A stretch of 26,634 nucleotides of DNA, taken from positions 1-26,634 of IMG/VR virus record IMGVR_UViG_3300037189_013117, one strand, 5' to 3'. The translations under genes and the position numbers were made by a program. The notes under the pieces were generated by a model. That model was not told the DNA's origin, ran no database searches, and saw only the letters and a list, made by a program, of their open reading frames with translations. Within the stretch, counting starts at the first letter, position 1, and each line of letters starts with the position of its first letter. The stretch comes from a virus. Positions 2,288-19,207 of this stretch are shown piece by piece.

Positions 2288-2289
2288 GG

Positions 2290-3785: not shown

Positions 3786-3787
3786 GG

Positions 3788-4495: not shown

Positions 4496-4514
4496 GATGC
4501 TTCCTCCTTAAAGT

Positions 4515-5125: not shown

Positions 5126-5161
5126 CTCGCCGTCTCCTGTTATCAGTCTTCTCTTCGCATT

Positions 5162-5190
5162 GTACCGAATGCCGGTACGAATACCCGTAC
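5162..5190 (-). other. Two mutually exclusive short hairpins in a 73-bp intergenic gap
   Basis: The gap 5126-5198 lies between the methyltransferase gene and the Ig-like gene. One hairpin pairs 5162-5167 with 5173-5178 (six pairs, five-base loop). A second pairs 5175-5179 with 5186-5190 (five pairs, six-base loop). They share bases 5175-5178, so only one can form at a time. No T-tract follows on the minus strand, so a Rho-independent terminator is unlikely. A processing or regulatory element is possible. The same gap contains TACAAT near 5160-5165 (minus strand) without a convincing -35 box. Confidence 0.3.
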
Positions 5191-5198
5191 TTTTTAAC

Positions 5199-6697: not shown

Positions 6698-7590
6698 CAG
6701 TATCCGCAGCCCTCTTGCAGCGTGATTGAAGCGTATGGGCCAGTACCGATAGAGTTGACGGCGGCGACTTGGAAGCTTCCGGTGGAAGAAGTGGCCGCAG
6801 AACCGCCCGTGAAGCTGCCACCGGCAGGCCAGCTTGAGTTGCTTCCGCTTGTGGGGCTGACGAGCGTCGTCGGGCCGCTGCTGCCGATTCGCCACAGGTA
6901 GCCTGTAATCGCAGACCCACCGTTTGACGCTGGGGTGTTCCAAGCGACAGTGTTTTGCCCGCCGCAGGTCCAATACTCATTGTAGTTTCGCACGTTTGTC
7001 GGCGCGCTAGGGACGGTTGGAGTGCCCGCCGTCGGCGTCACCGCACTCGACGCCGCCGTGTAAGCCCCGGTGCCAACGGCATTCACCGCCGCCACGCGGA
7101 AACGCACTGCCTGTCCGTTGGTCAGTCCTGTCACAGTCGCAGTCGTCGCCGTCGATGCCGCCGCCGTGAACGTCGTCCATGTGGTGCCGCCGTCAGTGCT
7201 GTATTGCTCCCGGTAGTCTGAGACTGGAGCCTGCGATATAACGCCGGTCGGTGCCGTCCAAGAGAGTGACGCCGAGGCGTTGCCTGCTACAGCAGTGAGG
7301 CCGGTAGGGGCAGGAGGCAGAAAAAGATCCCAGCGAGAATCGCTGGCGGACAGCACTCCGCTAGAGATCGACAAGCCCGAGCCGACGCGAATGCCACCGA
7401 GCGTGCTTGAAGAAGCGGTCGGCAAGGTGTACGCCCCGCCGAGCGTCAGGGTGACTATGCTGCCATTCAAGTCCTTGACAAACAACTTGCCGTCCGTCCA
7501 GTTAACGGCGCACTCGTTGGTATCGAGGTCGCTCGTCGTTGGAACGGCACCGGCGCGGTATGACCGCTTGAGTTTCACTTTGTTTGGCAT
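6697..7590 (-). CDS. Tail fibre protein with two Fn3 domains (297 aa)
   Basis: The ATG gives MPNKVKLKRSYRAG, the same basic attachment module as in the gene at 3788-4495 (ECAVNWTDGKLFVKDLNG). Residues about 52-85 contain TLPTASSSTLGGIRVGSGLS, a phage-fibre linker. A first Fn3 domain spans about 92-185 and is very similar in protein sequence to the Fn3 of the gene at 974-2287 (both include TAPTGVI, QAPVSDY and VAAVNAVGTGAYTAAS). A second Fn3 domain spans about 193-297 and contains two cysteines (WTCGGQ and the final EGCGY) that could bond. There is no lectin domain. No clear Shine-Dalgarno sequence lies in the nine-base gap, so coupling is likely. Probably a fibre or linker subunit. Confidence 0.87.
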   Translation of the reverse strand: MPNKVKLKRSYRAGAVPTTSDLDTNECAVNWTDGKLFVKDLNGSIVTLTLGGAYTLPTASSSTLGGIRVGSGLSISSGVLSASDSRWDLFLPPAPTGLTAVAGNASASLSWTAPTGVISQAPVSDYREQYSTDGGTTWTTFTAAASTATTATVTGLTNGQAVRFRVAAVNAVGTGAYTAASSAVTPTAGTPTVPSAPTNVRNYNEYWTCGGQNTVAWNTPASNGGSAITGYLWRIGSSGPTTLVSPTSGSNSSWPAGGSFTGGSAATSSTGSFQVAAVNSIGTGPYASITLQEGCGY

Positions 7591-7599
7591 GGAGTGACG

Positions 7600-8649
7600 C
7601 TACCGTTCCGCTGTGAATGTGAATGAAAAGGGATAGCCGATGGGCACAATCGTCATTTCTTGCATTGGCGAAAGGTTTGTCGATGCGGTATATGTGTCAT
7701 TCGCAACGATGTTTAGCCCGCTGTCGCTGGTGACACGAACCGGGCCTCCGGTCACTGTTATGTAGAAACTGACTAAATGAGTGCCGCTTGTGTTTGCGGT
7801 CTTGATCGTTACAGAACCAGTTTGCGAGGTAGTGGTTCGCGTGACGACCAGCGGCGTTGACGAATCGCCAATGCCCGCCACGGTCGCGCCACCCGTGTTG
7901 GATGTTACCGACAGGAGCGCGGGGCCGAACGCTACGTAGCCAGAGTGCTGTGCGTATGACCCCTGACCGATTGCGTTCACAGCAGCAACTCGCAGATCGT
8001 AAAAACCAGACGCCAAGCCAGTGATCGTTGCGCTAGTTGCCGTTGAGGTGCCGTCAGAAACGGTTGTCCAAACAGCGGGGTTGCCGCCGTAATTATAAAC
8101 CTGCACCACATAATCCGTTATCGACGAACCTCCGTTTGAAGCTGGTGCCGTCCACGATAGCGTGATGCTGCTGTCACCTCGCACCGCAGACAGTCCTGTC
8201 GGCACTCCCGGCGCAGTCGGATTGACGCCTAGTAGCGATTCTCCGCTAGTCACACTGGCTGCGCTTTGCGCTGAAATCACGCAGCGATAGCGGTCGCCGT
8301 TATTCGCGGTAGTCAGTCCCGTCAGAGCAAGCGATGCGGAATTTCCGCCGGTCACGCTTGCCCAGCTTGAGCCGCTGAACCGTTGCCACTGGTAGGTGAG
8401 CGTTCCGGCAGGGCTTGCTGTTGCTGTGACCGAAATGGTCGCGGCACCCGAGACGGCAGAATGATCGGTAGGTTGCTGCGTGATTGTTATGGTCCGGTCG
8501 TAGACGAGCGTGCCGACATAATCGCCGCCGTCAACGTCGCCATTCGCAATGACGAGTTCCCACGAGTTGTTCCCGGCGTAGACATACTGACGCCCGTTCT
8601 GCGTCGATGTTGCGCCAATGGCTGGAGATGATGGAAATGAAAATGGCAT
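7600..8649 (-). CDS. Tail fibre protein: QNGR module, Ig-like and Fn3 domains (349 aa)
   Basis: The start is set at the ATG of MPFSFPSSPAIGATS because AAGGTG lies seven bases upstream; a TTG two codons earlier is too close to that site. Residues 1-32 form the N-terminal module shared with the genes at 974-2287 and 1-710. Residues about 52-143 look like a bacterial Ig-like domain (ITQQPTDHSAVSGAATISV, LTYQWQR, LTTANNGDRYRCVIS). Residues about 145-240 form an Fn3 domain (APGVPTGLSAVRGDSSITLSW, DYVVQVYN, GFYDLRVAAVNAIG). The remainder is a beta-rich C-terminal domain ending FSFTFTAER, of no recognised family. Surface adhesion as part of the fibre apparatus is inferred. Confidence 0.87.
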   Translation of the reverse strand: MPFSFPSSPAIGATSTQNGRQYVYAGNNSWELVIANGDVDGGDYVGTLVYDRTITITQQPTDHSAVSGAATISVTATASPAGTLTYQWQRFSGSSWASVTGGNSASLALTGLTTANNGDRYRCVISAQSAASVTSGESLLGVNPTAPGVPTGLSAVRGDSSITLSWTAPASNGGSSITDYVVQVYNYGGNPAVWTTVSDGTSTATSATITGLASGFYDLRVAAVNAIGQGSYAQHSGYVAFGPALLSVTSNTGGATVAGIGDSSTPLVVTRTTTSQTGSVTIKTANTSGTHLVSFYITVTGGPVRVTSDSGLNIVANDTYTASTNLSPMQEMTIVPIGYPFSFTFTAER

Positions 8650-8690
8650 GAGCAATCACCTTGCCGACTTCGTTTGAAGGTCGATTTGTA

Positions 8691-10907
8691 TTATGAGTCG
8701 GGGAACGCTGCCGTGGGCTTGGTAATAGTGCGAGCAATTCCCTTGGTTATGCGGACGTCATCGATATATCCCGACATGAATCTTCCGATGACAAGACGTC
8801 CATCTGTCCAGTTTTGTGAAGACGAATACGAAGCTCCAGATTGAAACCCGTCGATATACAATCTCATAGTGCCCGAGACGCGAGTGATAGCAATGTAATG
8901 CCAAGCATTCGGAGGCACCGAGCCGCCATTAATGACGGTCTGAGTGATGTCGTGGACAAAAATGCGAAGCACATTATCTTCAGCGTATTTGTATAGCGAA
9001 AATCCGCTGCCGCCGTTGTTCGTATCGAAAATGTTAATCTGTGACGCGGCACCTTGGTGATACAGCCAGAGTTCAACCGTAAAGTCACCACTTCCAAACG
9101 CAAAACTGGCCCCTGACGCTTCAAGTCGCGAGCTACCGTTGAAGTACGCCGACTTGCCGCCCCACTTCGATTCTGCGTCTGACTGAGTCGCGCTGATTGC
9201 CGTAATCTGATTTGCCGCCAAGCTGGAATCGATAAACGTGCTGCCGCTGCCGTCCGCGTGAAGGAGAAAGGTCACTGACGAGAAATTTGGATCGGTTGTC
9301 GGCGCAGGCGGGGGGTCGCCCACGACTGGCGTTGCCTGCCCGCTTCCCATCTCAACGTACACACTGCCAGACCACCGAAACATTCGACTCGCATCGGTGG
9401 CGATGTAGATCGTGCCACTGGCACCTGTCACGGGAAAACCCGTCACGTTCGCGGCCTCGAAGGTGTTCCCGCCGCCAGCCGCAGTCCACTGACCATCGCC
9501 ACGAAGGAACGTCGATGCTGAAGCGGTGCCCGAACTGCCAAGCTGGGCGAGCGTTATCGCCCCCGTGCGACCAGAAACGCTAGTCACCGGGCCGTACTTT
9601 GCAGCCTCCACAGCGAAGTCAGAGATGGTCGAGGCGGTCTGAGTTCCCGTGTGGTTAGACCTGACGGTCGCATCTACATTCGGCACGCTGCCAAGGCCCA
9701 CGTCCGACTTACTGACAACAACCGCGCCCACTCGCCCCGCCACGCTTTGGACTGGTGCCGCTGCTGCGGCCCTCGCCGTGGTGTGGTAGAGGTTGCTTCC
9801 TTCCGGCACGTCAGTCGTCGTTCCGGGCGAAGGTGAAATCTCAACGTACCCCGTCCCTGACCATCGATAAATTTTCCTCGTATCGACCGCCGTGTAAATC
9901 TTGCCAACATCATTTGTGGCAGGGAAGGCACTGAGCGTCGCGTACTCGATGATGTCGTCCACGAACGACGGGAGCATTGACGACGGCACGGTTCCGTTTA
10001 CAAGCGTTGCGTAGCTTCCTGCGGGCTGCTTGGTGTCCAGAGCAGTCTGCAAGCTGACGATGTCATTTATCGTGTGCAGATGGGTCGATGGAGTGAAGGT
10101 TGCAGGAATCCCTGTTAATGCACTGAATGCAATGAGGGGAGTGGCATGTACGTGGTCAGCACGCGACGCCCGGAAGGCCGACCCCGCGCTGGCTGCCCCA
10201 AGCGGCTGAGGAGTCTCGTCGGCGAGGTTCGCAACCGCATCTGCGCCGCGTGGGATGGTGAAGTTTAGGGTGACTGTGTTTCCGCTCGTTACTGTGTCGA
10301 TCTTTGCATTCGTGCCAGACGCACCAGTCGTCACTCCACCCACTTGGACTGTCATTAGCGGTCCGACTTCGCCCTGAATCCCCTGCGGCCCGCGAGGCAC
10401 GACGAAGGAAATTACTTGAGACGGCGATGTTCCGGTGATCGATATCGATGCAGTGGTCGCCGAGGTCGTCGCAACGCTTCCGACAGACAGAGAGTTGGCA
10501 GGCCCGGCTGGACCCACATTTCCCTGCGGGCCTTGCACGCCGGTCGCGCCTTGCGGCAACACGAGCGAGAGAGTCTGAGTCGTTCCTGTGCCGGTTAGTG
10601 TGGCGGCTGCTTCAGCACCAGTGACAACAGTCCCGATCTGGAGCTTTGCGACAGGTCCGACTTCGCCCTGAATCCCCTGCGGCCCGCGAGGCACGACGAA
10701 TGAGATCGTCTGCGACGGTGCTGTTCCGGAGATCGATATCGACGCCGTAGTCGCAGAGGTTGTCGCAACACTTCCTACAGACAGGACGTTAGCAGGCCCG
10801 GCTGGACCCACGCTACCCGTCGGACCCTGCGGACCCACAGCACCGCCCTGTGTGTAAGACAAGGCGATAGGTGCAGGAGGTGTGATGTTGACGACGACGT
10901 CAGCCAT
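8691..10907 (-). CDS. Large tail fibre protein: collagen-like repeats, shaft, C-terminal LamG lectin (738 aa)
   Basis: The ATG has GGAGA eight bases upstream and lies one base after the stop of the Ig-like gene. Residues about 20-40, 74-88, 118-137 and 170-184 hold short Gly-X-Y collagen-like segments (GPQGPTGSVGPAGPA, GPQGIQGEVGP) separated by beta repeats. One repeat unit (SVATTSATTASISI plus PRGPQGIQGEVGP) occurs twice with near-identical DNA. The shaft contains HVHATPL, HLHTINDIVSLQTALDTK and FLRGDGQW, all classical phage-fibre motifs. Two FPATG/FPVTG modules occur (DNA about 9838-9960 and 9350-9461). The last 190 residues form a LamG domain (FLLHADGSG, FTVELWLYH, WHYIAITRVSGTMRLYIDG, IDDVRITKGIAR). 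It is the longest fibre in the window and probably the main receptor-binding fibre. Confidence 0.9.
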   Translation of the reverse strand: MADVVVNITPPAPIALSYTQGGAVGPQGPTGSVGPAGPANVLSVGSVATTSATTASISISGTAPSQTISFVVPRGPQGIQGEVGPVAKLQIGTVVTGAEAAATLTGTGTTQTLSLVLPQGATGVQGPQGNVGPAGPANSLSVGSVATTSATTASISITGTSPSQVISFVVPRGPQGIQGEVGPLMTVQVGGVTTGASGTNAKIDTVTSGNTVTLNFTIPRGADAVANLADETPQPLGAASAGSAFRASRADHVHATPLIAFSALTGIPATFTPSTHLHTINDIVSLQTALDTKQPAGSYATLVNGTVPSSMLPSFVDDIIEYATLSAFPATNDVGKIYTAVDTRKIYRWSGTGYVEISPSPGTTTDVPEGSNLYHTTARAAAAAPVQSVAGRVGAVVVSKSDVGLGSVPNVDATVRSNHTGTQTASTISDFAVEAAKYGPVTSVSGRTGAITLAQLGSSGTASASTFLRGDGQWTAAGGGNTFEAANVTGFPVTGASGTIYIATDASRMFRWSGSVYVEMGSGQATPVVGDPPPAPTTDPNFSSVTFLLHADGSGSTFIDSSLAANQITAISATQSDAESKWGGKSAYFNGSSRLEASGASFAFGSGDFTVELWLYHQGAASQINIFDTNNGGSGFSLYKYAEDNVLRIFVHDITQTVINGGSVPPNAWHYIAITRVSGTMRLYIDGFQSGASYSSSQNWTDGRLVIGRFMSGYIDDVRITKGIARTITKPTAAFPDS
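10360..10406 (-). repeat. 47-bp direct repeat, copy 1, in the large fibre gene
   Basis: This segment is identical base for base to 10654-10700. It encodes VVPRGPQGIQGEVGP, a collagen-like junction. The copies are 294 bp apart (98 codons), so the reading frame is kept. This is consistent with a fairly recent in-frame duplication or gene conversion. Confidence 0.9.
10654..10700 (-). repeat. 47-bp direct repeat, copy 2, in the large fibre gene
   Basis: This is the identical partner of 10360-10406. Recombination between the two copies would delete or add exactly 98 codons of fibre shaft without a frameshift, which could alter fibre length. Confidence 0.9.
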
Positions 10908-10908
10908 A

Positions 10909-11259
10909 TCACGCGTCTCCCGGCGTCAGGGTTCCAGACAGTACGGTTCGAGTCACGACGCCCGGCCCAACCCAGCGAAAGTACCAACGAAGCCTGTCAG
11001 TAGTGCTGAGAGCGGCAGTCTGATTCTCTTGAAGAGAAAGGGTGAGCCTCCCGGCAGCAAGATCGATCGGCGTGATCGTGAACTGAGCCACCTCCTGAGT
11101 GCCAGTGATCACGCCGTTAGCAACGCTCGTGACCTTGTAGATGCTCGACGAGAACGTATAGCCCGCGAGGCTTATGTCCGCATCGACGGTGAACCAGAAT
11201 TCGTCCCCGCGTATGAATTGCAGATTTAAGTTTTGAGGCAGGAGGGCGTAGTCAGCCAA
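10909..11259 (-). CDS. Ig-like beta-sandwich virion protein, BppU-N-like, paralog (116 aa)
   Basis: I choose the TTG start giving ADYALLPQNLNLQFIRGDEF: GGAG lies seven bases upstream, and this point aligns with the start of the paralog at 4799-5125 (STVSQLPGQMNLAFKRANDF). A TTG six codons earlier lacks a ribosome site. The body alternates beta strands (AGYTFSSSIYKVTSV, VAQFTITPIDLAAGRLTLSL, RLRWYFRWVGPG) and ends TVLSGTLTPGDA. The resemblance to N-terminal domains of baseplate upper proteins suggests it anchors fibres to the baseplate. It sits directly upstream of the 738-residue fibre, just as its paralog precedes a smaller collagen-like gene. Confidence 0.82.
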   Translation of the reverse strand: MADYALLPQNLNLQFIRGDEFWFTVDADISLAGYTFSSSIYKVTSVANGVITGTQEVAQFTITPIDLAAGRLTLSLQENQTAALSTTDRLRWYFRWVGPGVVTRTVLSGTLTPGDA

Positions 11260-11260
11260 T

Positions 11261-11395
11261 TCACTTCTCCACTGCAAAGGAGGCGTAGGCGACAGTCACA
11301 GCGGCAGCGGCTTTCGGAGCCTCGACGTCCATTGCGTGCGGGTCCGCAGACAGAGACGTCAGAACTGCGGTGATCCAAGCCCAGAGTGCGGTCAT
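11261..11395 (-). CDS. Small hypothetical protein (44 aa)
   Basis: The ATG overlaps the TGA of the preceding 52-residue gene (ATGA) and has GGAGG seven bases upstream, so translation is well supported. The N-terminus is hydrophobic and Trp-rich (MTALWAWITAVLTSLSA). The rest is Ala/Val-rich with a few acidic residues (MDVEAPKAAAAV). It could be a membrane-inserted micro-protein and is the last of the run of small membrane genes before the fibre genes begin. No family is recognised. Confidence 0.7.
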   Translation of the reverse strand: MTALWAWITAVLTSLSADPHAMDVEAPKAAAAVTVAYASFAVEK

Positions 11396-11550
11396 TTCGA
11401 CACCTCCACGTGCTGCCGCTGAACGTCCAGACACCACGCCGCAGCTACAAACAGCGAGAACGGGGCGATGATCAACGCAACCACGTAAGTCCACCACGGG
11501 ACCGGGAAGCGAAACTCTTGGTTATTGATGCTGTAAATGTTTTCCTTCAC
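11392..11550 (-). CDS. Small single-pass membrane protein (52 aa)
   Basis: The GTG start lies one base after the stop of the preceding gene. Residues 1-17 are polar (KENIYSINNQEFRFPVP). Residues 18-41 form one clear membrane helix (WWTYVVALIIAPFSLFVAAAW), and a short polar tail follows (LDVQRQHVEVSK). Size and layout fit a holin, antiholin or other lysis accessory protein, but nothing specific identifies it. It lies in a run of seven membrane or hydrophobic genes that includes a papain-like protease. Confidence 0.75.
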   Translation of the reverse strand: MKENIYSINNQEFRFPVPWWTYVVALIIAPFSLFVAAAWCLDVQRQHVEVSK

Positions 11551-11551
11551 G

Positions 11552-11815
11552 TCACCACCCCTGACCGTGGTTCAAGACTTGATGTCCTTCGGCGTCGATG
11601 CGAGCGTGAACGATGTTGGCCTCTTGCGGCGGTCGCTCTGCGACCATCATCACCCAGAGAAAACCCTTCGCGACACGAGCGATGAACTTGAGAACTGGAC
11701 GATCTGGACGAGAAGGCTCAGGCCTGATCGGAGACGCTGGCGACGACGCGAGCCACCAGCCGATCGCGAGGCAGGCGAGACCAGCGATCACGATATTGCG
11801 GTCACTTACTTTCAT
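11552..11815 (-). CDS. Small membrane protein with Pro/Arg linker (87 aa)
   Basis: Two ATG codons are adjacent; I use the second (MKVSDRNIVIAG), which sits six bases from GGGAG, while the first is too close. The start overlaps the end of the protease gene. Residues 7-24 form a membrane helix (NIVIAGLACLAIGWWLAS). A Pro/Arg-rich linker follows (SPIRPEPSRPDRP), then an amphipathic or hydrophobic stretch (FIARVAKGFLWVMMVAERP) and a polar His-containing tail. A spanin-like or holin-like accessory role is conceivable; no family is recognised. Confidence 0.72.
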   Translation of the reverse strand: MKVSDRNIVIAGLACLAIGWWLASSPASPIRPEPSRPDRPVLKFIARVAKGFLWVMMVAERPPQEANIVHARIDAEGHQVLNHGQGW

Positions 11816-12905
11816 CATTTGCTCCCGGTTGCAGCCATCCGCCATGATCCAAGTCTCGATATGCGAATCCGTTGACGCCGCCGATCGCGAAAGAGTCACC
11901 TTGGGCGAGAATCGCCTCGACGTCTTTGCGTTCGATCCAGAAGCTGCCGTCAGGCTGATCGGAGGGGAGCTTCCCACCTGAGACCCAGCGGGTGCCCCAA
12001 GAGTTGAGGCATAAAGCACCGTCGCGTGGACGCTTCATTCCGTTCTCGGGAGCGTTGGCAGCGTGACGAATCGATACCAGAGTCATGCAATGCGACCACT
12101 GCCCGCCTCTTGGTAAAAATCCGTCCTCGTCTCTGACATTCGTCGCAGCGAAGCCAACGTTGGAACAGATTGGGACGCAATAACCCGACTCCAGTGCGGC
12201 ACACAACTCTTCCCACGTGGAGACTTGAGCCACCGCACGAGCCGTGTGCTTGTTGGCCTCCTTCGCGAGATCGAGGGGCACGCCGTAGGCACCCCACTGA
12301 CGAGTTAGAGGAATTGAATATGTGGTGAGGTCAACGCTTCCGTACTTCTGCTTGTACAGGATTCCGCCGATGCCCGGAGTCTTACACTTGCCAGACACCC
12401 AGCGGGCTGCGGCGGCACCATAACTTCCATCTGAAAATCCCGCGTTAGTAACAGGAGGCATTCTGCCTGCCGTTCTGCTTCCGCCATAAATCGCGCTAAC
12501 GTCGCATTCAAGCGGAGGATTCGGCAACTCGCCGGTCGCGTGATCCGTCGCTTGTCCGATATATGACGACACACCCCAGCCGAAGGCGACGCAAGAACCC
12601 ATCTGCCCTTGATTCCAAGCCTCGAACGGCGTTCCATACACCTTGCGGTGAGCCTGATCAGCATACCGATAGAGGTACACGTCCTTGCCCTTCGCCTTCT
12701 TCACGGCGTCTGCACCGGCCTGAGCGAACGTCGGCTCTTTCAGTTCACCGAGGAACTCCTTCAGGCCAGCCGGATTGGGCTGGTAACCGAAGTTGTTCTC
12801 CAGATGGTTCGCCAGACGGAACGTCGCCAGTTGCACGAGCGCGCCGATGAACGACACGACGATCACTGTGACGAGAGCCGAGATGGTGAGCTTACTTCGC
12901 GGCAT
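11802..12905 (-). CDS. Membrane-anchored papain-family (C1-like) cysteine peptidase (367 aa)
   Basis: I choose the ATG of MPRSKLTISAL (AAGGG nine bases upstream) over a GTG two codons earlier. Residues about 4-29 are a signal anchor (LTISALVTVIVVSFIGALVQLATF). The catalytic region is papain-like: NQGQMGSCVAFGWG gives the oxyanion Gln (Q99) six residues before the nucleophile Cys (C105), as in papain Q19/C25. GGQWSHCMTLVS supplies the His (H272), and LCLNSWGTRW supplies the Asn (N301). So all four active-site residues appear present, and an active enzyme outside the inner membrane is predicted. Known members cleave proteins. In this run of membrane genes it may attack host envelope proteins or act in lysis (inference). 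A host-derived morphogenetic or entry function is an alternative. Confidence 0.85.
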   Translation of the reverse strand: MPRSKLTISALVTVIVVSFIGALVQLATFRLANHLENNFGYQPNPAGLKEFLGELKEPTFAQAGADAVKKAKGKDVYLYRYADQAHRKVYGTPFEAWNQGQMGSCVAFGWGVSSYIGQATDHATGELPNPPLECDVSAIYGGSRTAGRMPPVTNAGFSDGSYGAAAARWVSGKCKTPGIGGILYKQKYGSVDLTTYSIPLTRQWGAYGVPLDLAKEANKHTARAVAQVSTWEELCAALESGYCVPICSNVGFAATNVRDEDGFLPRGGQWSHCMTLVSIRHAANAPENGMKRPRDGALCLNSWGTRWVSGGKLPSDQPDGSFWIERKDVEAILAQGDSFAIGGVNGFAYRDLDHGGWLQPGANDESK

Positions 12906-13353
12906 CAGCACAAGCCCTTGAGATGTCCTTCATCGCGGCGACCCACTTGGCTCGATCCGCAGGAGTCACAGGCCCGCCGTTGTCGCCGACGGTCTCGTCG
13001 AGGTAGGCGTGAATCGCTTCCCTGACCTTCGGCTGACGGGCACCGAGGCTCTCGCCACGTAGACGAGCCTCGCGAGCAGCGATCCTGAGATCATCGAACG
13101 CCACTCCCGTCTTCAGTCGAGGACTCGCAAGAGTTCCATCGTAGGCGATGATTTCGCCGATCTCTCCTGTGAGAGCCGATAGCATCTGGGCGTCGGAACC
13201 GGCGTCCGGGCCGATGAACAGGCCTCGAAGGACGAGGCCGTTAGGTGGCACTGGCCCCGGAGCGACGTCTTCTACGCCTCCGGAGAAAGCCCACAAGAGC
13301 AACGCGAGTGCAACGAGGCACCCGGCTGCGATCTGACGGTGAAGCAGAGTCAT
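12892..13353 (-). CDS. Single-pass membrane protein with extracytoplasmic domain (153 aa)
   Basis: The ATG overlaps the TGA of the gene upstream (ATGA), giving MTLLHRQIAAGC. Residues 8-23 form the membrane helix (GCLVALALLLWAF). A Pro/Gly linker follows (VAPGPVPPNG), then a soluble domain of about 110 residues containing LVLRGLFIG, IGEIIAYDGTLASP, DDLRIAAREARLRGESLG and a C-terminal helical segment (KWVAAMKDISRAC). The arrangement predicts export of the C-terminal domain. No family is recognised. It overlaps the papain-like gene by 14 bases, so the two are probably co-translated and may act together. Confidence 0.78.
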   Translation of the reverse strand: MTLLHRQIAAGCLVALALLLWAFSGGVEDVAPGPVPPNGLVLRGLFIGPDAGSDAQMLSALTGEIGEIIAYDGTLASPRLKTGVAFDDLRIAAREARLRGESLGARQPKVREAIHAYLDETVGDNGGPVTPADRAKWVAAMKDISRACADAAK

Positions 13354-13619
13354 TCCTTGTCGCTCCCAGCCACGAGACACAGGGTAAGTTCATTGATCGC
13401 AGCCTTCGCCTTGTCGTCGAGCGTCTCGGTCGCGATCAGGCGGCTTCGGACAGCGGCAAGGCTCTCGATCGCACTGCGGTAGCTCGGAGCCTTGGGTGGC
13501 TGCGGGATCGCGGGCACGTCGATCGACGGCAGAGGCACTGGCTTGACGGCAGCAGGCTTCGTGGACTCAGGCCACACGAGGAGAGCCACAGCCACGGCGA
13601 TGATGAGCAGGAAAATCAC
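13350..13619 (-). CDS. Single-pass membrane protein with Pro-rich linker (89 aa)
   Basis: A GTG overlaps the TGA of the upstream gene (GTGA), with GAGGG eight bases before it. The protein begins with a membrane helix (IFLLIIAVAVALLVWP) at residues 2-17. It continues with a long Pro/Lys/Val linker (KPAAVKPVPLPSIDVPAIPQ) and ends in a helical segment (SAIESLAAVRSRLIATETLDD). An N-anchor plus extended Pro-rich segment is also seen in spanins and TonB-like periplasm-spanning proteins. The assignment stops at this architecture; no homolog is recognised. Confidence 0.75.
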   Translation of the reverse strand: MIFLLIIAVAVALLVWPESTKPAAVKPVPLPSIDVPAIPQPPKAPSYRSAIESLAAVRSRLIATETLDDKAKAAINELTLCLVAGSDKE

Positions 13620-13987
13620 TTGGAAGCCCTCACGATCGGGATAAGAGACTCGACCACGCCGCCTGCCGCGAGCAGAACGATCGCTCGAAATGTCGGACGG
13701 GAAACAAGCCAGAAAGGCACGAAGTAAATTGGCACACACTTGTCGGCGACGGCGTCAAAAAGCGTTGCTACAGCGGCTACAGCCCAGATTTTCTTCTGCT
13801 CGCCGTCGGCGGGGATCGAGTCAAGTGCCGAAACGACAAGTCTCAGGAGCGACGTCGCAAGTTCCGCGAAGTCTCCGACACTGATGCCGTCCTTGGCGAG
13901 CGTTTTGGCGTGCGAAACATAGGCCTTGACCTTCTCGATCAGGCCCGGAGCGTCGTTCGCGGCAGTGATGGCGGAGTCTGCGACCAT
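13616..13987 (-). CDS. Putative membrane protein, holin-like candidate (123 aa)
   Basis: The ATG shares its first base with the stop of the preceding gene (TAATG). The N-terminal half is helical (LIEKVKAYVSHAKTLAKDG, ELATSLLRLVVSALDSI). The C-terminal half is hydrophobic with two or three segments (IWAVAAVATLFDAV, VPIYFVPFWLVS, AIVLLAAGGVVESLIPIV) and a short basic end. It is the first of the consecutive membrane genes. Size and topology would suit a holin, but no family is recognised and the membrane order is not certain. Confidence 0.75.
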   Translation of the reverse strand: MVADSAITAANDAPGLIEKVKAYVSHAKTLAKDGISVGDFAELATSLLRLVVSALDSIPADGEQKKIWAVAAVATLFDAVADKCVPIYFVPFWLVSRPTFRAIVLLAAGGVVESLIPIVRASK

Positions 13988-14349
13988 TACTCGTCACCTC
14001 CCAGACCAGCCCAAGCGACTCGATCGAGGACCGACACGAGCCTCCGGCGGACTTCAGGAGTCACCTCGCCATCGCAGGGGAGGATCGCCGTAATGATCTT
14101 GCGATCGATGGCAGAGACAATCTCCGGGTAAAGCGACTCGCAAACCGGCTTCATTCCGGTCCAGATGAACTTCTTGATCGATCGATGCACTTTCGCCCAG
14201 TCCGCGACAGTGACGATCGTAGGATCATCGACGAGACCGTCTGCCTTGACGACGTCCCGCGTTGATTCGTAGATAGACTTGAGCCAGAGCCTGTCCGAGA
14301 TCAGCATCTTGGACAGAACTTGCTCAAGAGTGGCCGTTTTCAGCGTCAT
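13987..14349 (-). CDS. Hypothetical protein (120 aa)
   Basis: The start ATG overlaps the end of the gene upstream by 26 bases. The protein is mostly helical by composition (LEQVLSKMLISDRLWLKSIYES, VADWAKVHRSIKKFIW) and ends in a region with EVRRRLVSVLDRVAWAG. It has no signal peptide, no membrane helix and no recognisable catalytic motif. Its stop is fused to the start of the first membrane gene, so it is expressed with that module. Function unknown. Confidence 0.72.
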   Translation of the reverse strand: MTLKTATLEQVLSKMLISDRLWLKSIYESTRDVVKADGLVDDPTIVTVADWAKVHRSIKKFIWTGMKPVCESLYPEIVSAIDRKIITAILPCDGEVTPEVRRRLVSVLDRVAWAGLGGDE

Positions 14350-14545
14350 TCCCGGTCACCCAGCGGAGAAAGTCAGCACCCTCTTGGGTGCAAAGAATCG
14401 CAAAAATGCGGGTTTTTAGCCCTTTTTCGATCGTCGTCTCAGCCGTGTGTTCGAGCCACTCCATCGCTTCGTCGAAGACTTGAGCGCGTGCCCGGTCGTC
14501 GCAAGCGGCGAGAAAAAGCCTCGCGTACACATGGATTTGACCCAT
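14324..14545 (-). CDS. Small hypothetical protein (73 aa)
   Basis: I start at the ATG of MGQIHVYARLFLAAC, 28 bases after the upstream stop; the ribosome site is weak. The protein is helical with a conserved-looking core (FDEAMEWLEHTAETTIEKGLKTRIFAILC) and ends DFLRWVTGNDAENGHS. No family, membrane segment or signal peptide is recognised. It overlaps the next gene by 26 bases, suggesting translational coupling. Confidence 0.65.
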   Translation of the reverse strand: MGQIHVYARLFLAACDDRARAQVFDEAMEWLEHTAETTIEKGLKTRIFAILCTQEGADFLRWVTGNDAENGHS

Positions 14546-14573
14546 ACGATTCCAGCCTAGCACTCTCCGACGA

Positions 14574-14975
14574 TCACCCTGAAGTATCGATGAGACCTTC
14601 GAGAAAGGTCTGAGGGCCAGACTCGTCGTCGCTGGGTCTAACGCAGAAAAGACTCTCTGGAACGACGGCAACCTCGTAGGGGACGTGCTTCACCACGCCG
14701 CCCACCCGCCGCCGCTCCCGCTCTTCGTCCGTCCAACCAGCCTGAAATTCGAGGCATTTCTGCCTGATCTCTTCCTCTGAAGGCAGATAGGCCTTCCTGT
14801 GGCCGGTCTTCGACCCGTGCCAAGACTCGCGGCGTGCGAGGCCAAGCTGTTTGCGAGTCGTGTCGCAGCGGTCAGCCGATATCTTCAGGGTCTGGCTAAT
14901 GATCCGGGTCGGCGTCCCCGCGATCCACATCGCCGTGAACGTCGCCGTGCAAATTACTGTCGTCGATCGAGCCAT
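14574..14975 (-). CDS. HTH-type protein with C-terminal WTDEER motif (133 aa)
   Basis: The start is the ATG of MARSTTVICTA because AAGGA lies six bases upstream, although this overlaps the glycosyltransferase gene by 80 bases. Residues about 16-48 form a GcrA/resolvase-type helix-turn-helix (MWIAGTPTRIISQTL, DTTRKQLGLARR). Residues about 61-90 hold a second conserved motif (PSEEEIRQKCLEFQAGW, DEERERRR). The same two elements in the same order occur in the protein at 17074-17451 (PSRKEIRRLTAEIRKTW, PEEKARRD). It probably binds DNA and may regulate neighbouring genes. The C-terminus (about 97-133) is unique to this copy. Confidence 0.75.
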   Translation of the reverse strand: MARSTTVICTATFTAMWIAGTPTRIISQTLKISADRCDTTRKQLGLARRESWHGSKTGHRKAYLPSEEEIRQKCLEFQAGWTDEERERRRVGGVVKHVPYEVAVVPESLFCVRPSDDESGPQTFLEGLIDTSG

Positions 14976-15849
14976 CGGGCATCCTTGCCCCCTCCGGAAT
15001 CCAGAAAGAAACACATCGCATTGAAGGGTTCAGAAAGAGATTGCCTCCCATAGACTTATGGAAGGGCACGTGTTCGCAGTCTCCTCCGGAGTAAACGCCC
15101 ATCAGGAAGCTCTTCTCCCTGTAGACGGCAAGCTGACCGAAGGCACTGTTCATCTTCACGGGCGGCGAACCGACGGGCGGGTGCCACAGGTGGAACCAGA
15201 GCATGTCCTTACGCTCTTTCCATCCGGTCCATCGACAGGCCCAAGCGTCGTAGTGGCACAGAGTTGGCCTCGACCAGACCGGCGGACCCAACTCGCACCA
15301 CGAGTAGGAAGCCATCGCTGACGTCCACAGATGATCTTCGCTCTCCATCCGTCCGATCGTGTTCAAGATGCCGCCGACACTGAAGCCTCCCCACGGGTCA
15401 GTGTCGAACACGATCACGTAGTCGAAGTCCATCGAGTCGCCGTCCACCCACTTGCGGCAAGCGTTGCGATACTCGGCAAGAGCGAGCGTCCTCGACTCGT
15501 GCTTCGTCGAGTTCAGGTGAGGCCTGCCGTTGTCTTGCAGCGAGCAGAACGTGCGTGAGCCGTCTGACCACTGAGACAGAAAATCCTTCGTGCCATCTGT
15601 CGAGTCGTTCTCGTAGACAAAGACCTTGTAGTCCTCGAAGCATTCACCAGCAGCCTTCACGTACTGCATTGTGAACGGCAGAAACGGCATCGCATTGCGG
15701 CAGATCGCCACGAATGCGACCCTGAGAGACTTGGCCTGCTCAAGACCGACGTCAGCAAACTCACCGTAGTAGTTCGCGAACTCTTCGTCAGGTGGCAGCA
15801 ACAGGTCAGGGTGATGCTGCTCTATTTCCCGTAGCGATATAGTTGCCAT
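14896..15849 (-). CDS. Glycosyltransferase, GT-A fold, CAP59-like (317 aa)
   Basis: I start at the ATG of MATISLREIEQHH, inside the end of the previous glycosyltransferase gene (28-base overlap), with GGTGG upstream. Residues 42-52 begin the nucleotide-sugar fold (SLRVAFVAICRN). The motif VYENDSTDGTKDFLSQW (79-95) matches the acidic loop of GT-A enzymes such as the CAP59 mannosyltransferase type. DYVIVFDTDPWGGFS (143-157) supplies the DxD metal site. The acidic, repetitive C-terminal tail (HGDVHGDVDRGDADPDH) overlaps the next gene in another phase. The enzyme would add a sugar to a phage or host acceptor. It follows a second glycosyltransferase and an FkbM methyltransferase, so a short glycan pathway is likely. 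Confidence 0.83.
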   Translation of the reverse strand: MATISLREIEQHHPDLLLPPDEEFANYYGEFADVGLEQAKSLRVAFVAICRNAMPFLPFTMQYVKAAGECFEDYKVFVYENDSTDGTKDFLSQWSDGSRTFCSLQDNGRPHLNSTKHESRTLALAEYRNACRKWVDGDSMDFDYVIVFDTDPWGGFSVGGILNTIGRMESEDHLWTSAMASYSWCELGPPVWSRPTLCHYDAWACRWTGWKERKDMLWFHLWHPPVGSPPVKMNSAFGQLAVYREKSFLMGVYSGGDCEHVPFHKSMGGNLFLNPSMRCVSFWIPEGARMPDGSIDDSNLHGDVHGDVDRGDADPDH

Positions 15850-16487
15850 TTGTAATCCACCTCGCCTTCTGCAAGCGGCCATTCGTGAAACAGCACTTCT
15901 CCGCTCGTCGCCATCGTCGTCATGTGCGGATAACCAAATAGGCCAGATGACCCCGGCCTGTCGATTGGCCGGTCGTCCAACTCGTGGACGTGAGTCGTCT
16001 TGATCGTCAGGGCAGGGTTGATCAACTCAAGCTTTTCACGGCACGCCCAACCGGCTATTACCTGATCGCACCCGACCACAGCGAGCGGCATGTCGATAGT
16101 CAGGGCAGGCAGCGAGCCAGCAAGAAAAGCCCACGAGTCCTGCGAGCCGCTGAAGAACTTGTCGTCATACTGGTGGCCTATAAACCTTGGCCCGAAGTGG
16201 TTTTCCCATCGGGTAAGAGCCACGAGCCTGCCAGCCTTCTTCAAGCCCCTGAGCATGTACGCCGTCGCGTTGAACGTGATGTCGCTGTTTGCGATCACAC
16301 ACCACTCGCCACGGTATTTCGAGACGCAATGCTCGTGAAGCTCGCTGAACGAGATCGTGCGGTCGCCAGCTTCGAGATACTCGACGCGATCGAACATCCC
16401 CGACGTCTCATTGTGCAGTCTTACCCGCTGAAGCTCTTGCCTTCGATGCTCAGACTGTGGGGTGTAAGACTGCGAGACTAGGATCAT
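15822..16487 (-). CDS. Glycosyltransferase-like protein (221 aa)
   Basis: The ATG overlaps the TGA of the FkbM methyltransferase gene (ATGA), giving MILVSQSYTPQSEHR. The motif EWCVIANSDITFN (residues 61-73) resembles the DxD-like strand of GT-A-type glycosyltransferases that read 'ANSDI'. GSQDSWAFLAGSLP (about 115-130) and VVGCDQVIAGWACREK (about 140-157) look like acceptor-side motifs. The C-terminus (LFGYPHMTTMATSGEVLFHEW) is not recognised. Family assignment is less certain than for the next gene. Coupling to the methyltransferase and to a second glycosyltransferase supports a sugar-related job. Confidence 0.7.
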   Translation of the reverse strand: MILVSQSYTPQSEHRRQELQRVRLHNETSGMFDRVEYLEAGDRTISFSELHEHCVSKYRGEWCVIANSDITFNATAYMLRGLKKAGRLVALTRWENHFGPRFIGHQYDDKFFSGSQDSWAFLAGSLPALTIDMPLAVVGCDQVIAGWACREKLELINPALTIKTTHVHELDDRPIDRPGSSGLFGYPHMTTMATSGEVLFHEWPLAEGEVDYKWQLYRYGK

Positions 16488-17077
16488 TCGCCAATTGCCC
16501 AACAGTGACCGGGGTGAGACACGAGAGGGTGCGGTATGCGAGTCACTCGCTTGCCGATGCGGGCAAGCTCACGCTCGACGTCGTAGAACGTGTCGTGGCA
16601 CTCGACTACGAACAGAGTTCGAGACCACTTCAGAACGTCAACGATCCCCTGAAGAGCGACAACCTCGCCGCCCTCGATGTCGATCTTGACGAAGTCTGCA
16701 CCGTTCCCGCAGGCGTCGTCGAGAGAGAAGCACTGGACGGCCTTCTCTTCGACAACCGGCACGGGAGCCATCCCCTCGCCGCCGATCGGGTGCATTTCGA
16801 GGATCGAGTTGTGCCCTGACGACGAGCGGATAAAGAAGGGGCACTCGCCAGTGACGTCAGACACAGCAGCCTTGACGACCGTCAGGTTCTCGATGGTCGG
16901 AATCAGCGAGTAGTTTCGCTCGTCAGGCTCGAACGCCACGACCTCGTCGAACATCTGGCACAATGGCACAGCCCAAGTTCCTACGTTCGCTCCGACGTCC
17001 ACAGCAAGAGACTTGCTTTTTAGTCGTCCGATGCCGCTCATCACAGGCTCGGTGAGCCAGAATTCAACGCCAGTCAT
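16484..17077 (-). CDS. FkbM-family SAM-dependent methyltransferase (197 aa)
   Basis: I start at the ATG of MTGVEFWLTEPVMSG: it overlaps the upstream stop (ATGA) and has GAGG eight bases upstream, whereas an ATG two codons earlier is too close to that site. Motif I is LAVDVGANVGTW (about 25-35) and the second acidic strand is VVAFEPDERNYSLI (about 46-59). LTVVKAAVSD, FSLDDACGNGADFVKIDIEGGE and LFVVECHDTFYD follow in the order typical of FkbM enzymes, which O-methylate sugars and polyketides. It heads the block methyltransferase, glycosyltransferase, glycosyltransferase. A role in modifying the glycan made by those genes is inferred. Confidence 0.87.
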   Translation of the reverse strand: MTGVEFWLTEPVMSGIGRLKSKSLAVDVGANVGTWAVPLCQMFDEVVAFEPDERNYSLIPTIENLTVVKAAVSDVTGECPFFIRSSSGHNSILEMHPIGGEGMAPVPVVEEKAVQCFSLDDACGNGADFVKIDIEGGEVVALQGIVDVLKWSRTLFVVECHDTFYDVERELARIGKRVTRIPHPLVSHPGHCWAIGE

Positions 17078-17451
17078 AGCCATGTCCTCGAAAAGGAAGG
17101 TGCCTCGATCCCGATGCTAACTGCCGGTCGCCCCCGGCCCGCCTCGCTTCTTCCGCGAAGGTCTCTTCTTGCTTTCTCCTCTGGACTCCACGTCTTGCGA
17201 ATTTCTGCCGTGAGACGTCTGATCTCTTTTCGACTTGGGTCGAGATGCGATGCCCTTTCTGGTCTTGGGCCGAGATCGATTTTTCGGGCAATGCTTCGGA
17301 CAGTTGTCGGCAATAGCTTGAGATGAGTCGCCATCTCCGACACCTTCGCTGACCCCCAATTCGACTTGAGATACTCGAACATATCCGTCGCGTCCCGCGT
17401 CGTCAGGTCGAGTCGATTTTTGATGTACTTGATCTTGGTTTCCCGCTCCAC
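17074..17451 (-). CDS. HTH-type protein with C-terminal WSPEEK motif (125 aa)
   Basis: A GTG start with GGAGG seven bases upstream gives ERETKIKYIKNRL. Residues 31-61 form a helix-turn-helix (NWGSAKVSEMATHL, TTVRSIARKIDLG). Residues about 72-94 contain PSRKEIRRLTAEIRKTW followed by SPEEKARRD, matching the second motif of the protein at 14574-14975. The C-terminus is Arg/Gly-rich and then hydrophobic. The two related proteins bracket the methyltransferase-glycosyltransferase block. DNA binding and local regulation are inferred. The alternative frame that overlaps this gene is Arg/Ser/Lys-rich and judged to be a shadow. Confidence 0.8.
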   Translation of the reverse strand: MERETKIKYIKNRLDLTTRDATDMFEYLKSNWGSAKVSEMATHLKLLPTTVRSIARKIDLGPRPERASHLDPSRKEIRRLTAEIRKTWSPEEKARRDLRGRSEAGRGRPAVSIGIEAPSFSRTWL

Positions 17452-17557
17452 GAATCAGCCTCCAGAAAAAAGAAAAGATCATGTGTGCTTTCCAAGAGTG
17501 GCCCACCGCCAGCCTGCCTACCCGACAGACCGGCGGCGGGACCACCGGAGGGGACGG

Positions 17558-17935
17558 TCAAGGTGCGAACTGCTGCACCCAGTAAATTTTTCCGTCGCGG
17601 CCAACAATGCCAGCGACTCCGATGCGAGAGTTGTGCCTAGACAAGATGTTGGCACGATGACCCGGAGAGTTCAGCCACGTGCGAACAACCGCAGAGGCGT
17701 GAGGCTGACCCATCGCGATGTTCTCAGTCGCACCTGACGAGTGAGCGAAGAAGCCCTCGCTCGCCATTCGGTTCGCGTGACGACGAGCGCGTCCCATGAG
17801 ACGACAGTCAATCACGAGTTCCGGCAGACCGGCCTGAACACGTGCCTGATTAGTCTCCGCGATGACCTGAGACTCGGCCTCGGTCAACGTGTTGCAATCG
17901 CCGCCCAGCACTGCCAGCAAAAACAAGGCAAACAT
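17558..17935 (-). CDS. Secreted CAP-domain (SCP/PR1, YkwD-like) protein (125 aa)
   Basis: The ATG follows a strong AAGGAGG site. The first 13 residues are hydrophobic (MFALFLLAVLGG) and end near a cysteine at 14, suggesting a short signal peptide, perhaps with lipid attachment. The CAP core is present: VIAETNQARVQAGLPEL, LMGRARRHANRMASEG, the His and Glu of FFAHSSGATENIAMG (H65, E71), SAVVRTWLNSPGHRANIL (H93) and GKIYWVQQFAP. At about 110 residues it is a minimal CAP domain. Bacterial members are secreted and largely uncharacterised. In a phage it might modify or bind the host envelope, or block superinfection (inference). A 106-bp gap without a gene follows. Confidence 0.85.
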   Translation of the reverse strand: MFALFLLAVLGGDCNTLTEAESQVIAETNQARVQAGLPELVIDCRLMGRARRHANRMASEGFFAHSSGATENIAMGQPHASAVVRTWLNSPGHRANILSRHNSRIGVAGIVGRDGKIYWVQQFAP

Positions 17936-17950
17936 AAGCCCTCCTTGGCT

Positions 17951-18355
17951 TTAAGAGTTCTGAATCCAATCGCTACCCTGACGCTCGTAAAGACGAACGT
18001 CTCGACAACCCAACGCAGTCGCAATAGACACGCACTGCGGTGAGAAGACTGCCAATGTTTCCTGTGGATTGATGTGACCGTCGGCGATGAGCAGACTCGC
18101 TGCCGCTCGTGCGAGACCGCGACGCCGGTGCGGGGGGTCGGTGAATCCCTCTAGCGTCTGCATTCCTCGCCAGTAGTGCGTCGCCGTCCATGCCGCCACT
18201 CGCTCCTGATCCGTTCTCACGATCGACACCGGAGTCGTCGAAGTCTTTTCCTTGACCTCGACCTGAAACTCCGAACTCGGCTTCGTGAGCCTCGTGATGA
18301 TGATGTCAGCATCAATAAGGCTTAACTGCCGAACCGTCGTCGTGAACGCTCGCAT
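17951..18355 (-). CDS. GNAT-like N-acetyltransferase (134 aa)
   Basis: The second half carries the acetyl-CoA-binding motif: TLEGFTDPPHRRRGLARAAASLLIADG, with RRRGLA at residues 77-82. A strand and helix follow (TLAVFSPQCVSIATALGCRDVRLYER), as in GNAT enzymes, which acetylate amino groups of small molecules or proteins. The N-terminal 60 residues fit the first strands of the fold (ADIIITRLTK, FQVEVKEK, TPVSIVRT). Substrate unknown. Phage GNAT proteins can modify host proteins or antibiotics, but nothing here points to one. GGAAG lies about 11 bases upstream of the ATG. Confidence 0.75.
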   Translation of the reverse strand: MRAFTTTVRQLSLIDADIIITRLTKPSSEFQVEVKEKTSTTPVSIVRTDQERVAAWTATHYWRGMQTLEGFTDPPHRRRGLARAAASLLIADGHINPQETLAVFSPQCVSIATALGCRDVRLYERQGSDWIQNS

Positions 18356-18379
18356 AAGGTAATCACTTCCGTACTAACG

Positions 18380-18505
18380 TCAAGCAGTTTTTTTCTTGAT
18401 TGGGACAAGTTTTTTGACGCCGTCGATGATCTTCCACTCCCAGTTTTTGGGAGGCTTTCCCGGCGGCTCTGGGGGCCAAGTCTCACGTGTTGTTATCGAT
18501 CCCAC
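18380..18505 (-). CDS. Small Pro/Lys-rich protein (41 aa)
   Basis: A GTG start preceded six bases upstream by GGAGGG overlaps the end of the nuclease gene. The N-terminal half is Pro/Glu-rich (TWPPEPPGKPPKNWEW) and the C-terminal half is basic (IIDGVKKLVPIKKKTA). The good ribosome site and the tight fit between two genes support it. Function unknown; a nucleic-acid-binding role would suit the basic tail. Confidence 0.6.
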   Translation of the reverse strand: MGSITTRETWPPEPPGKPPKNWEWKIIDGVKKLVPIKKKTA

Positions 18506-18936
18506 GGCGTGCCCTCCGTGAACTGATCGAGAGGAATGTGGCAGACCGGCTCGATGTCTGCCGGGTCTCTGGTCTGGGCTGTTCGTCCGCCGTACCTGAT
18601 CCAATCTGGCGAAGTCTTGCAGAGGTTCGCACTCTTGATGACTCCGCAAGAGTCAGCCACCACGAAGTACGTGTCGGTTCCGGTCGAGGCCTTCAGACCG
18701 GCTGCTGCTCGAAGCTTTAGGACGCTGATCATCACGTCCGGGTACTGGCCCCATGTCATCCCCGGACGGCACTTGATTTCCAGCCACGCCACGAGCCTGC
18801 CATCCACCGTGACCATCGAGTCCACGCCGTAGCTCAGTGGCACTTTCTGCACCTCGGCAGAGAACGTCTGAGCCACGTAGCTGCGGACCGCCTCCTCGTT
18901 GCTCAGGTCAGCCTGAGTCTCATACATCGTTCGCAT
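18493..18936 (-). CDS. PD-(D/E)XK nuclease-like protein (147 aa)
   Basis: The ATG has AAAGGA six bases upstream and overlaps the VRR-NUC gene. The nuclease signature is an N-terminal helix with E15 (SNEEAVRSYV), then YGVDSMVTVDG (D39) and VAWLEIKCRPG (E53-x-K55), giving the E...D...ExK arrangement. The domain continues with YPDVMISVLKLRAA and DTYFVVAD. Such proteins cleave DNA, often at branched or damaged sites. It is the third nuclease-fold gene in a row. The exact family is not certain, but similar small proteins are common in phages. Confidence 0.75.
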   Translation of the reverse strand: MRTMYETQADLSNEEAVRSYVAQTFSAEVQKVPLSYGVDSMVTVDGRLVAWLEIKCRPGMTWGQYPDVMISVLKLRAAAGLKASTGTDTYFVVADSCGVIKSANLCKTSPDWIRYGGRTAQTRDPADIEPVCHIPLDQFTEGTPWDR

Positions 18937-19207
18937 CGAGAATCCTTTCCGCCTCAGCCTTACTAGTAACCACTTCCGCGACGGCTCCGCCGATCTCGCG
19001 AATCTCTTTCATCCTCTGCACCTGAAGCGGACGAGGCTTCTGCCCCGGTCGCTTTACTTCCATGAACACCGCTCGCCCATGCTTGACCGTGAGTAGGTCA
19101 GGAACCCCAGCCATCTGCATCGGCCCGCCAGCGATCTTGAACGTCCACCACCCCTTGGCTTTCGCGAGAGTCACGATCGACTTCGTGATGGTGCTTTCGA
19201 GTGTCAT
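18920..19207 (-). CDS. VRR-NUC domain nuclease (95 aa)
   Basis: I choose the ATG that overlaps the upstream stop (ATGA), giving MTLESTITKSIV; a GTG nine codons earlier is possible. The VRR-NUC pattern is complete: E4 in the first helix, AGGPMQMAGVPDLLTVKHG (D37) and AVFMEVKRPGQKPRPLQVQ (E50-x-K52, Q62). This is a minimal PD-(D/E)XK domain common in phages and related to Holliday-junction or structure-specific nucleases. It is translationally linked to another nuclease-like gene on each side. Confidence 0.87.
   Translation of the reverse strand: MTLESTITKSIVTLAKAKGWWTFKIAGGPMQMAGVPDLLTVKHGRAVFMEVKRPGQKPRPLQVQRMKEIREIGGAVAEVVTSKAEAERILDANDV

Follow-up and report, generated by a model that had tools for sequence, protein, structure and literature searches.

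Lysis by double-stranded DNA phages is thought to depend on peptidoglycan hydrolases. The locus described here, a run of membrane-protein genes around a papain-like protease, raises the question of whether a phage might open its host with a protease instead. It lies in a stretch of viral DNA of 26,634 nucleotides (IMG/VR record IMGVR_UViG_3300037189_013117; hereafter the window), the whole of which recurred without a difference inside a 50.7 kb contig. Our preferred reading, to which we assign a probability of about 0.55, is that seven genes of the window act late in infection as a co-translated cassette by which a tailed phage of Planctomycetota disrupts the envelope and lyses its host, replacing or assisting an endolysin where host walls are rich in protein.

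Seven open reading frames filled positions 13987 to 11261 of the window exactly, all on the minus strand (Table 1). Their junctions consisted of overlaps of 4, 4, 14, 17 and 4 bases, and one pair was 1 base apart, which confirmed the start-stop coupling of the seven genes that had been claimed in an earlier note made from the sequence alone. The GTG start of anc90 overlapped the stop of TM4, and the protease probably starts at the ATG at 12905 rather than the GTG at 12911 because its relatives start at the same MPRS. Hydrophobic segments were scored with Kyte-Doolittle 19-residue windows at a threshold of 1.6 or above. Six of the seven products contained such a segment, so the earlier statement that every gene encodes a hydrophobic or anchor segment held for these six and failed for the 44-aa protein, the N-terminal half of which was only moderately hydrophobic. 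TM4, described in the earlier note as a multi-segment protein, had just one segment above the threshold. Six consecutive positives, given nine positives among 38 genes, had a permutation p of ~0.001. Comparison with close relatives gave dN/dS values of 0.07–0.36 for all seven genes, indicating purifying selection, and the three micro-proteins can therefore be regarded as products of real genes.

Table 1. The seven cassette genes and their products, with positions in the window (KD, Kyte-Doolittle score)
Feature	Position	Strand	Evidence
TM4, 123-aa membrane protein, first cassette gene	13616..13987	-	one segment, KD 1.89; dN/dS 0.08-0.22
anc90, 89 aa, N-terminal anchor, Pro-rich linker, small domain	13350..13619	-	KD 2.47 at residue 1
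anc155, 153 aa, N-terminal anchor, Pro-rich linker, helical domain	12892..13353	-	AlphaFold pLDDT 87
C1-like (papain-fold) cysteine protease, 367 aa, N-terminal membrane anchor	11802..12905	-	fold, catalytic set, dN/dS
mic88, 88-aa anchored protein	11552..11818	-	KD 1.74
mic52, 52-aa single-span membrane protein	11392..11550	-	KD 2.46; dN/dS 0.07-0.24
mic44, 44-aa micro-protein	11261..11395	-	maximum KD 1.17

Relatives were encoded on at least 572 viral stretches, 80 of which were kept; cultured phages gave no match. A comparison of 98 protease loci revealed the constant order TM4-[anc90]-anc155-protease-mic88-[x]-mic44 on the same strand, and the set thus co-occurs in related genomes, as the earlier note had suggested checking. 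Of the partners, anc155 accompanied the protease most consistently (94/98 loci). The two main downstream small proteins, mic88 and mic44, were present in 88 and 83 loci respectively and the TM4 family, always on the same strand, in 75, while anc90 was detected in 22 and mic52 in nine, close relatives only. The complete genome G006 has, in place of anc90 and anc155, one protein of 185 aa that carries two hydrophobic segments. Complete genomes with the cassette ranged down to 32 kb in size.

Where the cassette could be placed relative to other phage genes, it lay at the end of the tail operon, upstream of the terminase gene or among head genes, and this position suggests that it would be expressed late. 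In Blastopirellula marina DSM 3645, where it is part of a prophage-like element, and in a related genome it was directly upstream of the terminase and portal genes; the lysis genes of lambda likewise lie just before terminase. It closed the tail operon in G006, G014 and G016. In the complete genome G021 it was flanked by the prohead protease and major capsid genes, which is unusual for lysis genes, and in the window it was directly followed by a gene for a tail-like protein (phrog_1084, E 2.9e-6), with collagen/LamG fibre genes nearby. These last two arrangements would suit a virion or assembly role, in which the anchored protease and small membrane proteins are packaged, or serve head or tail maturation or entry by cutting the wall from outside or processing virion proteins. 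We consider such a role unlikely; it retains some weight because the cassette of G021 lies among head genes. Its placement relative to structural genes varied (after tail genes, before terminase, before fibre genes) whereas its internal order was constant, and six adjacent products with membrane segments would be unusual for virion proteins. Moreover, a separate prohead-protease-like gene was recognisable by sequence in G021, G006, G014 and G416. On this ground a head-maturation (prohead) protease was rejected as the main reading, since in G021, G006 and G014 the cassette protease would not be the sole protease of the head operon.

Alignment of the protease with 18 homologues, down to ~33% identity, showed Gln99, Cys105, His272 and Asn301 to be invariant and in this order. 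A structure model with a pLDDT of just 65.6 was used for the fold comparisons. The top 50 Foldseek matches were all to papain-family proteins (E down to 2.5e-7), and VIA aligned the model with xylellain (PDB 3ois) over 230 residues (Z 16.6, rmsd 4.1), the top matches again belonging to the papain family. On this model the protein has a papain (C1) fold with an intact active site, in agreement with the membrane-anchored C1-like peptidase of the earlier note, and its dN/dS of ~0.10 against close relatives fits an active enzyme. None of 17 close relatives passed the curated cut-off of PF00112 and the window protein itself was below detection, whereas the distant homologue L117 (Gemmatales) did pass (26.7 bits against a cut-off of 20.7); we therefore call the protease C1-like. 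A sequence search of the PDB returned chance matches only.

No muramidase, amidase or transglycosylase was found by Pfam among the 30 window proteins scanned, consistent with the earlier note. Amidase_2, Phage_lysozyme, SLT, M15_3, CHAP and M23 were all absent from 18 long cassette-bearing contigs, among them four genomes judged complete by their overlapping ends and the 50.7 kb contig in which the window lies in full; the check proposed in the earlier note, for related genomes with the same set and no endolysin, came out in favour of its reading as far as these six families go. Identical searches gave matches in control genomes. A full Pfam scan of the 50 proteins of G006 revealed no peptidoglycan hydrolase, and for G014 and G021 the families considered were the best 25 of 42 listed. 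An unrecognised endolysin could be present in these genomes, since many of their proteins belong to no known family. Phage_lysozyme occurred in 6 of 392 Planctomycetota genomes, a figure that was not used as evidence as it has no fair baseline.

Other families of papain-fold enzymes (CHAP, NlpC/P60) frequently serve as endolysins, and the cassette might be a lysis cassette whose enzyme cuts the peptides of peptidoglycan, the protein wall of the host being incidental. The BFVD matches of the protease include weak ones to mycobacteriophage Lysin A, and Planctomycetes do have peptidoglycan, which is lysozyme-sensitive (PMC4432640). We nevertheless regard this reading as improbable: the fold matches were to true C1A proteases (xylellain, cathepsins), which cut proteins, the third catalytic residue is Asn, as in C1, no wall-binding domain was seen, and most genes for peptidoglycan synthesis are missing from many Planctomycetales (PMC8567305).

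Cellular homologues were found mainly in Planctomycetota (12 of 392 sampled genomes), which is probably the host group of the window virus. Planctomycetes have an SDS-resistant protein wall (PMC3422733; PMC8567305), and Cys-rich wall proteins are present in Planctomycetales (PMC8567305), so the implied host agrees with the protein-rich wall postulated in the earlier note, which had been written in ignorance of the host. A protease alone may not suffice because of the lysozyme-sensitive peptidoglycan (PMC4432640). Mucilaginibacter also had a C1-like homologue, which showed no evident anchor and lay amid ordinary chromosomal genes.

Under the lysis reading, the C1-like protease would be made anchored in the inner membrane, its catalytic domain lying in the periplasm, and TM4, anc90, anc155, mic88, mic52 and mic44 would position it, time it or open the way for it, as holin and spanins do in a standard lysis cassette. 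When infection ends, the protease would cut structural wall proteins, such as the Cys-rich ones found in Planctomycetales, or peptide links within the envelope. The cell would then break with no classical peptidoglycan hydrolase at work, or with the help of one that escapes recognition. We infer this membrane topology, the periplasmic location, the partner roles and lysis itself, with TM4 as a candidate holin-like component. Both anchored proteins with Pro-rich linkers reported in the earlier note, anc90 and anc155, were indeed anchored N-terminally, and no outer-membrane lipoprotein signal was seen in the window. TM4 and the other partners had no Pfam or PHROGs match, even when divergent Blastopirellula members were used, and no cassette product matched a known holin or spanin significantly, although TM4 and the small proteins carry membrane segments. 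Two genes near the G323 protease scored at chance level against a holin PHROG (E 0.2) and a spanin PHROG (E 0.13) and were discarded. In structure comparison the good model of anc155 gave generic helical-bundle matches only (best Z 7.2), which were not interpretable. Alignments showed that most members of mic88 end in a conserved C-terminal Gly-Trp and that mic44 has a conserved Pro-x-Ala-Ala-Ala-Ala-Val stretch. The proposal of a protease-based lysis module is partly supported: the conserved set, the papain fold, the absence of six endolysin families from 18 contigs and the implied host speak for it, and the lack of holin or spanin matches, the head-gene location in G021 and the lysozyme-sensitive peptidoglycan of Planctomycetes speak against it.

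The least probable alternative is a module for host takeover or for modifying the envelope (superinfection exclusion, surface remodelling). Glycosyltransferase and FkbM methyltransferase genes adjoin the cassette in the window, and the Mucilaginibacter homologue would suit this reading, but the glycosyltransferase neighbours are inconstant (missing in G021) while the cassette is kept in complete genomes of down to 32 kb. More frequent loss would be expected of an accessory module, and these genomes would then not be left with no recognisable lysis enzyme.

In G416, which lacks this protease family, the genes at the same locus encoded a trypsin-like protease (Trypsin_2, E 7e-23) and a papain-motif protein, alongside small membrane proteins. 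The papain-motif protein had no Pfam or PDB match and is called papain-like by motif only, because its profile comparison with the protease family was not significant. G418 and G422 also lacked the protease and were not counted as true absences since their contigs end within or beside the region where it would lie. A wider proposal, which we advance tentatively and at somewhat less than even odds, is that a large lineage of uncultured Planctomycetota phages lyses through an anchored papain-like protease cassette and not a peptidoglycan hydrolase, that the protease, where lost, was replaced in situ by a trypsin-like protease and a papain-motif protein, and that the system is adapted to the protein wall. 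Phage exit from Planctomycetes appears little studied, and their wall, long called proteinaceous, is still debated. If correct, the proposal would provide a testable answer to how phages leave Planctomycetes, hint at the function of hundreds of viral genes that lack annotation, supply a sequence marker by which planctomycete phages could be recognised and indicate, indirectly, that protein bears load in the planctomycete wall.

The cassette resembles holin-endolysin-spanin cassettes (lambda S-R-Rz/Rz1) in combining one enzyme with small membrane proteins in a compact, co-translated set that belongs to the late region and in some genomes immediately precedes terminase. It differs in having a C1-like protease as its enzyme, with no peptidoglycan hydrolase detected, and partners that match none of the known holin or spanin families; in the window, moreover, the anchors of the anchored proteins are N-terminal and a lipobox is absent. 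An N-terminal membrane segment is also carried by SAR endolysins (P1 Lyz, phage 21 R); unlike these muramidases, the present enzyme is a protease, and its strongly hydrophobic anchor (KD 2.57) showed no sign of a release-type segment. PeiW and PeiP, the pseudomurein endoisopeptidases of methanogen viruses, are cysteine peptidases by which the virus leaves a host whose wall is non-standard. The likeness drawn here is one of enzyme type and use, and their substrate and host domain differ. They are mentioned in a recent survey of the lytic proteins of prokaryotic viruses, which makes no mention of planctomycetes or papain proteases (PMC12596118). With MEROPS family C1 (papain; xylellain, cathepsins, Cwp84) the protease shares the fold and the Gln-Cys-His-Asn set, and differs in its N-terminal membrane anchor, its place in a phage cassette and its position below PF00112 detection. 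Within that family, Cwp84 targets a bacterial surface layer, yet is a host protein.

A conserved cassette, maintained under selection, surrounds a C1-like protease in planctomycete phages that encode no recognised endolysin. In the window its seven genes lie on the minus strand in the order TM4 (a 123-aa membrane protein), anc90 and anc155 (N-terminally anchored, with Pro-rich linkers), the protease, and the small proteins mic88, mic52 and mic44. Five junctions are overlaps (4, 4, 14, 17 and 4 bases) and one is a gap of a single base, in agreement with the start–stop coupling described in the earlier note. The hydrophobic or anchor segment it had placed in every gene was recovered for six of the seven products, which passed the hydropathy threshold, but not for the 44-aa protein, which fell below it. 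The permutation p-value for this run of six among the window's 38 genes was ~0.001. All seven genes showed a dN/dS of 0.07–0.36, which indicates that the micro-proteins too are encoded by genuine genes. The window is itself a fragment, its 26,634 bases being identical to part of contig G001 (50,674 bases).

The ATG at 12905 is the most likely start of the protease because the MPRS beginning is common to its relatives. The window protease had no Pfam C1 match and a PDB sequence search returned none; a Gemmatales homologue passed the PF00112 cut-off. The AlphaFold model, built from 17 sequences, was moderate (pLDDT 65.6) and its best PDB structure matches were papain-family throughout; VIA-align against xylellain gave Z 16.6 over 230 residues (rmsd 4.1). 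Gln99, Cys105, His272 and Asn301, the residue types that the earlier note had seen in place, were conserved without exception across 18 homologues, among them copies from Blastopirellula, Gemmatales and Mucilaginibacter (33–43% identity). As the N-terminus carries a strong hydrophobic segment (KD 2.57), the protein is likely to be anchored in the inner membrane with its catalytic domain in the periplasm.

A first scan revealed 22 viral relatives and an alignment-based scan at least 572 related viral stretches, 80 of which were kept. Profile searches iterated across the retrieved loci found the protease in 98, together with anc155 (94), mic88 (88), mic44 (83), TM4 (75), anc90 (22) and mic52 (9), always in the same strand and order; several of the absent partners fall at contig ends. 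The co-occurrence in related genomes that the earlier note had proposed as a check was thus observed. In the complete genome G006 a single longer anchored protein replaces anc90 and anc155. The anc155 model (pLDDT 87) predicted a helical domain behind the anchor and Pro-rich linker, and a structural search with it gave no informative match. Most members of the mic88 family end in a near-invariant Gly-Trp, even where the rest is divergent. A Transgly_assoc-type small membrane protein is an extra member of some cassettes; in other genomes it lies elsewhere in the late region.

Four cassette-bearing genomes are complete, with overlapping ends: G006 (41.8 kb), G014 (45.4 kb), G016 (41.7 kb) and G021 (32.3 kb). 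Searches for Amidase_2, Phage_lysozyme, SLT, Peptidase_M15_3, CHAP and Peptidase_M23 gave zero matches in 18 long contigs including these four, and control genomes matched in the same searches. Of the 65 proteins called in G006, 50 were scanned against Pfam, which gave 17 families, none a peptidoglycan hydrolase; the other 15 were either very short ORFs or clearly genes for structure, replication or glycosylation. For G014 and G021 (102 proteins scanned) there was none among the 25 families listed of 42.

Contig G416 and its near-identical sister G417, whose portal is 67% identical to that of G014, lack the C1-like protease. In both, the gene that in G006 stands ahead of TM4 is followed instead by genes for a protein of 85 aa, a pair of small anchored proteins, a protein of 289 aa, a trypsin-like protease with an anchor (Trypsin_2, E 7e-23) and two other membrane proteins. 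The 289-aa protein is papain-like by motif only (Gln..His-Glu-Cys and Gly-His-Ala-Val); a relative (36% identical) lies beside a 69-aa membrane protein at locus L241. In G218, a more distant prophage-type locus, a C1-like protease gene lies upstream of the terminase, next to genes for a lipoprotein and a small membrane protein. In these relatives, then, proteases and small membrane proteins occupy the slot, and no recognised peptidoglycan hydrolase does.

No copy of the protease was found in cultured phages. Among species genomes, the Planctomycetota copies came from a MAG contig, Blastopirellula marina DSM 3645 and Gemmatales; a bacterial MAG whose phylum is not stated also had one, and Mucilaginibacter a more distant one; 12 of 392 sampled Planctomycetota genomes had a homologue. 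A prophage-like element in B. marina and in the related genome G145 encodes TM4, anc155, the protease and a protein resembling mic88; these stand immediately upstream of genes resembling those for terminase, portal and prohead protease. From the cellular copies, the Planctomycetota genomes and the prophage-like elements we infer that the window phage infects Planctomycetota. In both species the element adjoins the same housekeeping genes at the same chromosomal site, and neither early genes nor an integrase appeared in the part that was read; the element could be domesticated or resemble a gene-transfer agent. The homologue on Mucilaginibacter chromosomes has no evident anchor; its neighbours are ordinary chromosomal genes, and cassette partners were not detected.

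Planctomycete walls have been defined as proteinaceous and resist boiling SDS (PMC3422733), and wall preparations contain Cys-rich YTV proteins (PMC8567305). Many Planctomycetales are missing most peptidoglycan synthesis genes (PMC8567305); planctomycete sacculi nevertheless contain peptidoglycan and are lysozyme-sensitive (PMC4432640). On leaving such a host, a phage may need to breach a layer of protein, alone or together with peptidoglycan. We infer that the cassette acts in lysis, as the earlier note had suggested for a host with a protein-rich wall; a literature search found no description of such a protease cassette. The main alternative is a role in the virion or its assembly, which is favoured by G021, where the cassette occupies a head-operon position, flanked by the prohead protease and capsid genes. 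In G006, G014 and G016 it closes the tail operon, and in the window and contig G003 it precedes the tail fibres. A further alternative is a lysis enzyme that cuts peptidoglycan peptides.

Positions of the cassette and of other features
Feature	Sequence	Position
Seven-gene cassette	Window	13987–11261
mic88	Window	11552–11818
Transgly_assoc-type protein	G006	22917–23168
Transgly_assoc-type protein	G021	27371–27598
Transgly_assoc-type protein	G003	74634–74885
Replacement slot	G416 (L229)	3416–6736
Replacement slot	G417 (L231)	5106–8426
Phage-like element	B. marina (L114)	6018–20721
Phage-like element	G145 (L167+L168)	10329 to about 35000
C1-like homologue	Mucilaginibacter (L115)	10046–10972
C1-like homologue	Mucilaginibacter (L116)	
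CAP-domain protein	Window	17558–17935
Ferritin-like protein	Window	21785–22252
Tail fibre genes	Window	974–10907

Elsewhere in the window are a protein with a CAP domain (SCP/PR-1) and a hydrophobic N-terminus, unusual in a phage, and a phage-encoded ferritin-like protein (Pfam Ferritin, E 1.5e-16), both kept in G003 and G004. The fibre genes have repeated fn3, LamG-like and collagen-like stretches in common, which suggests recombination among them.
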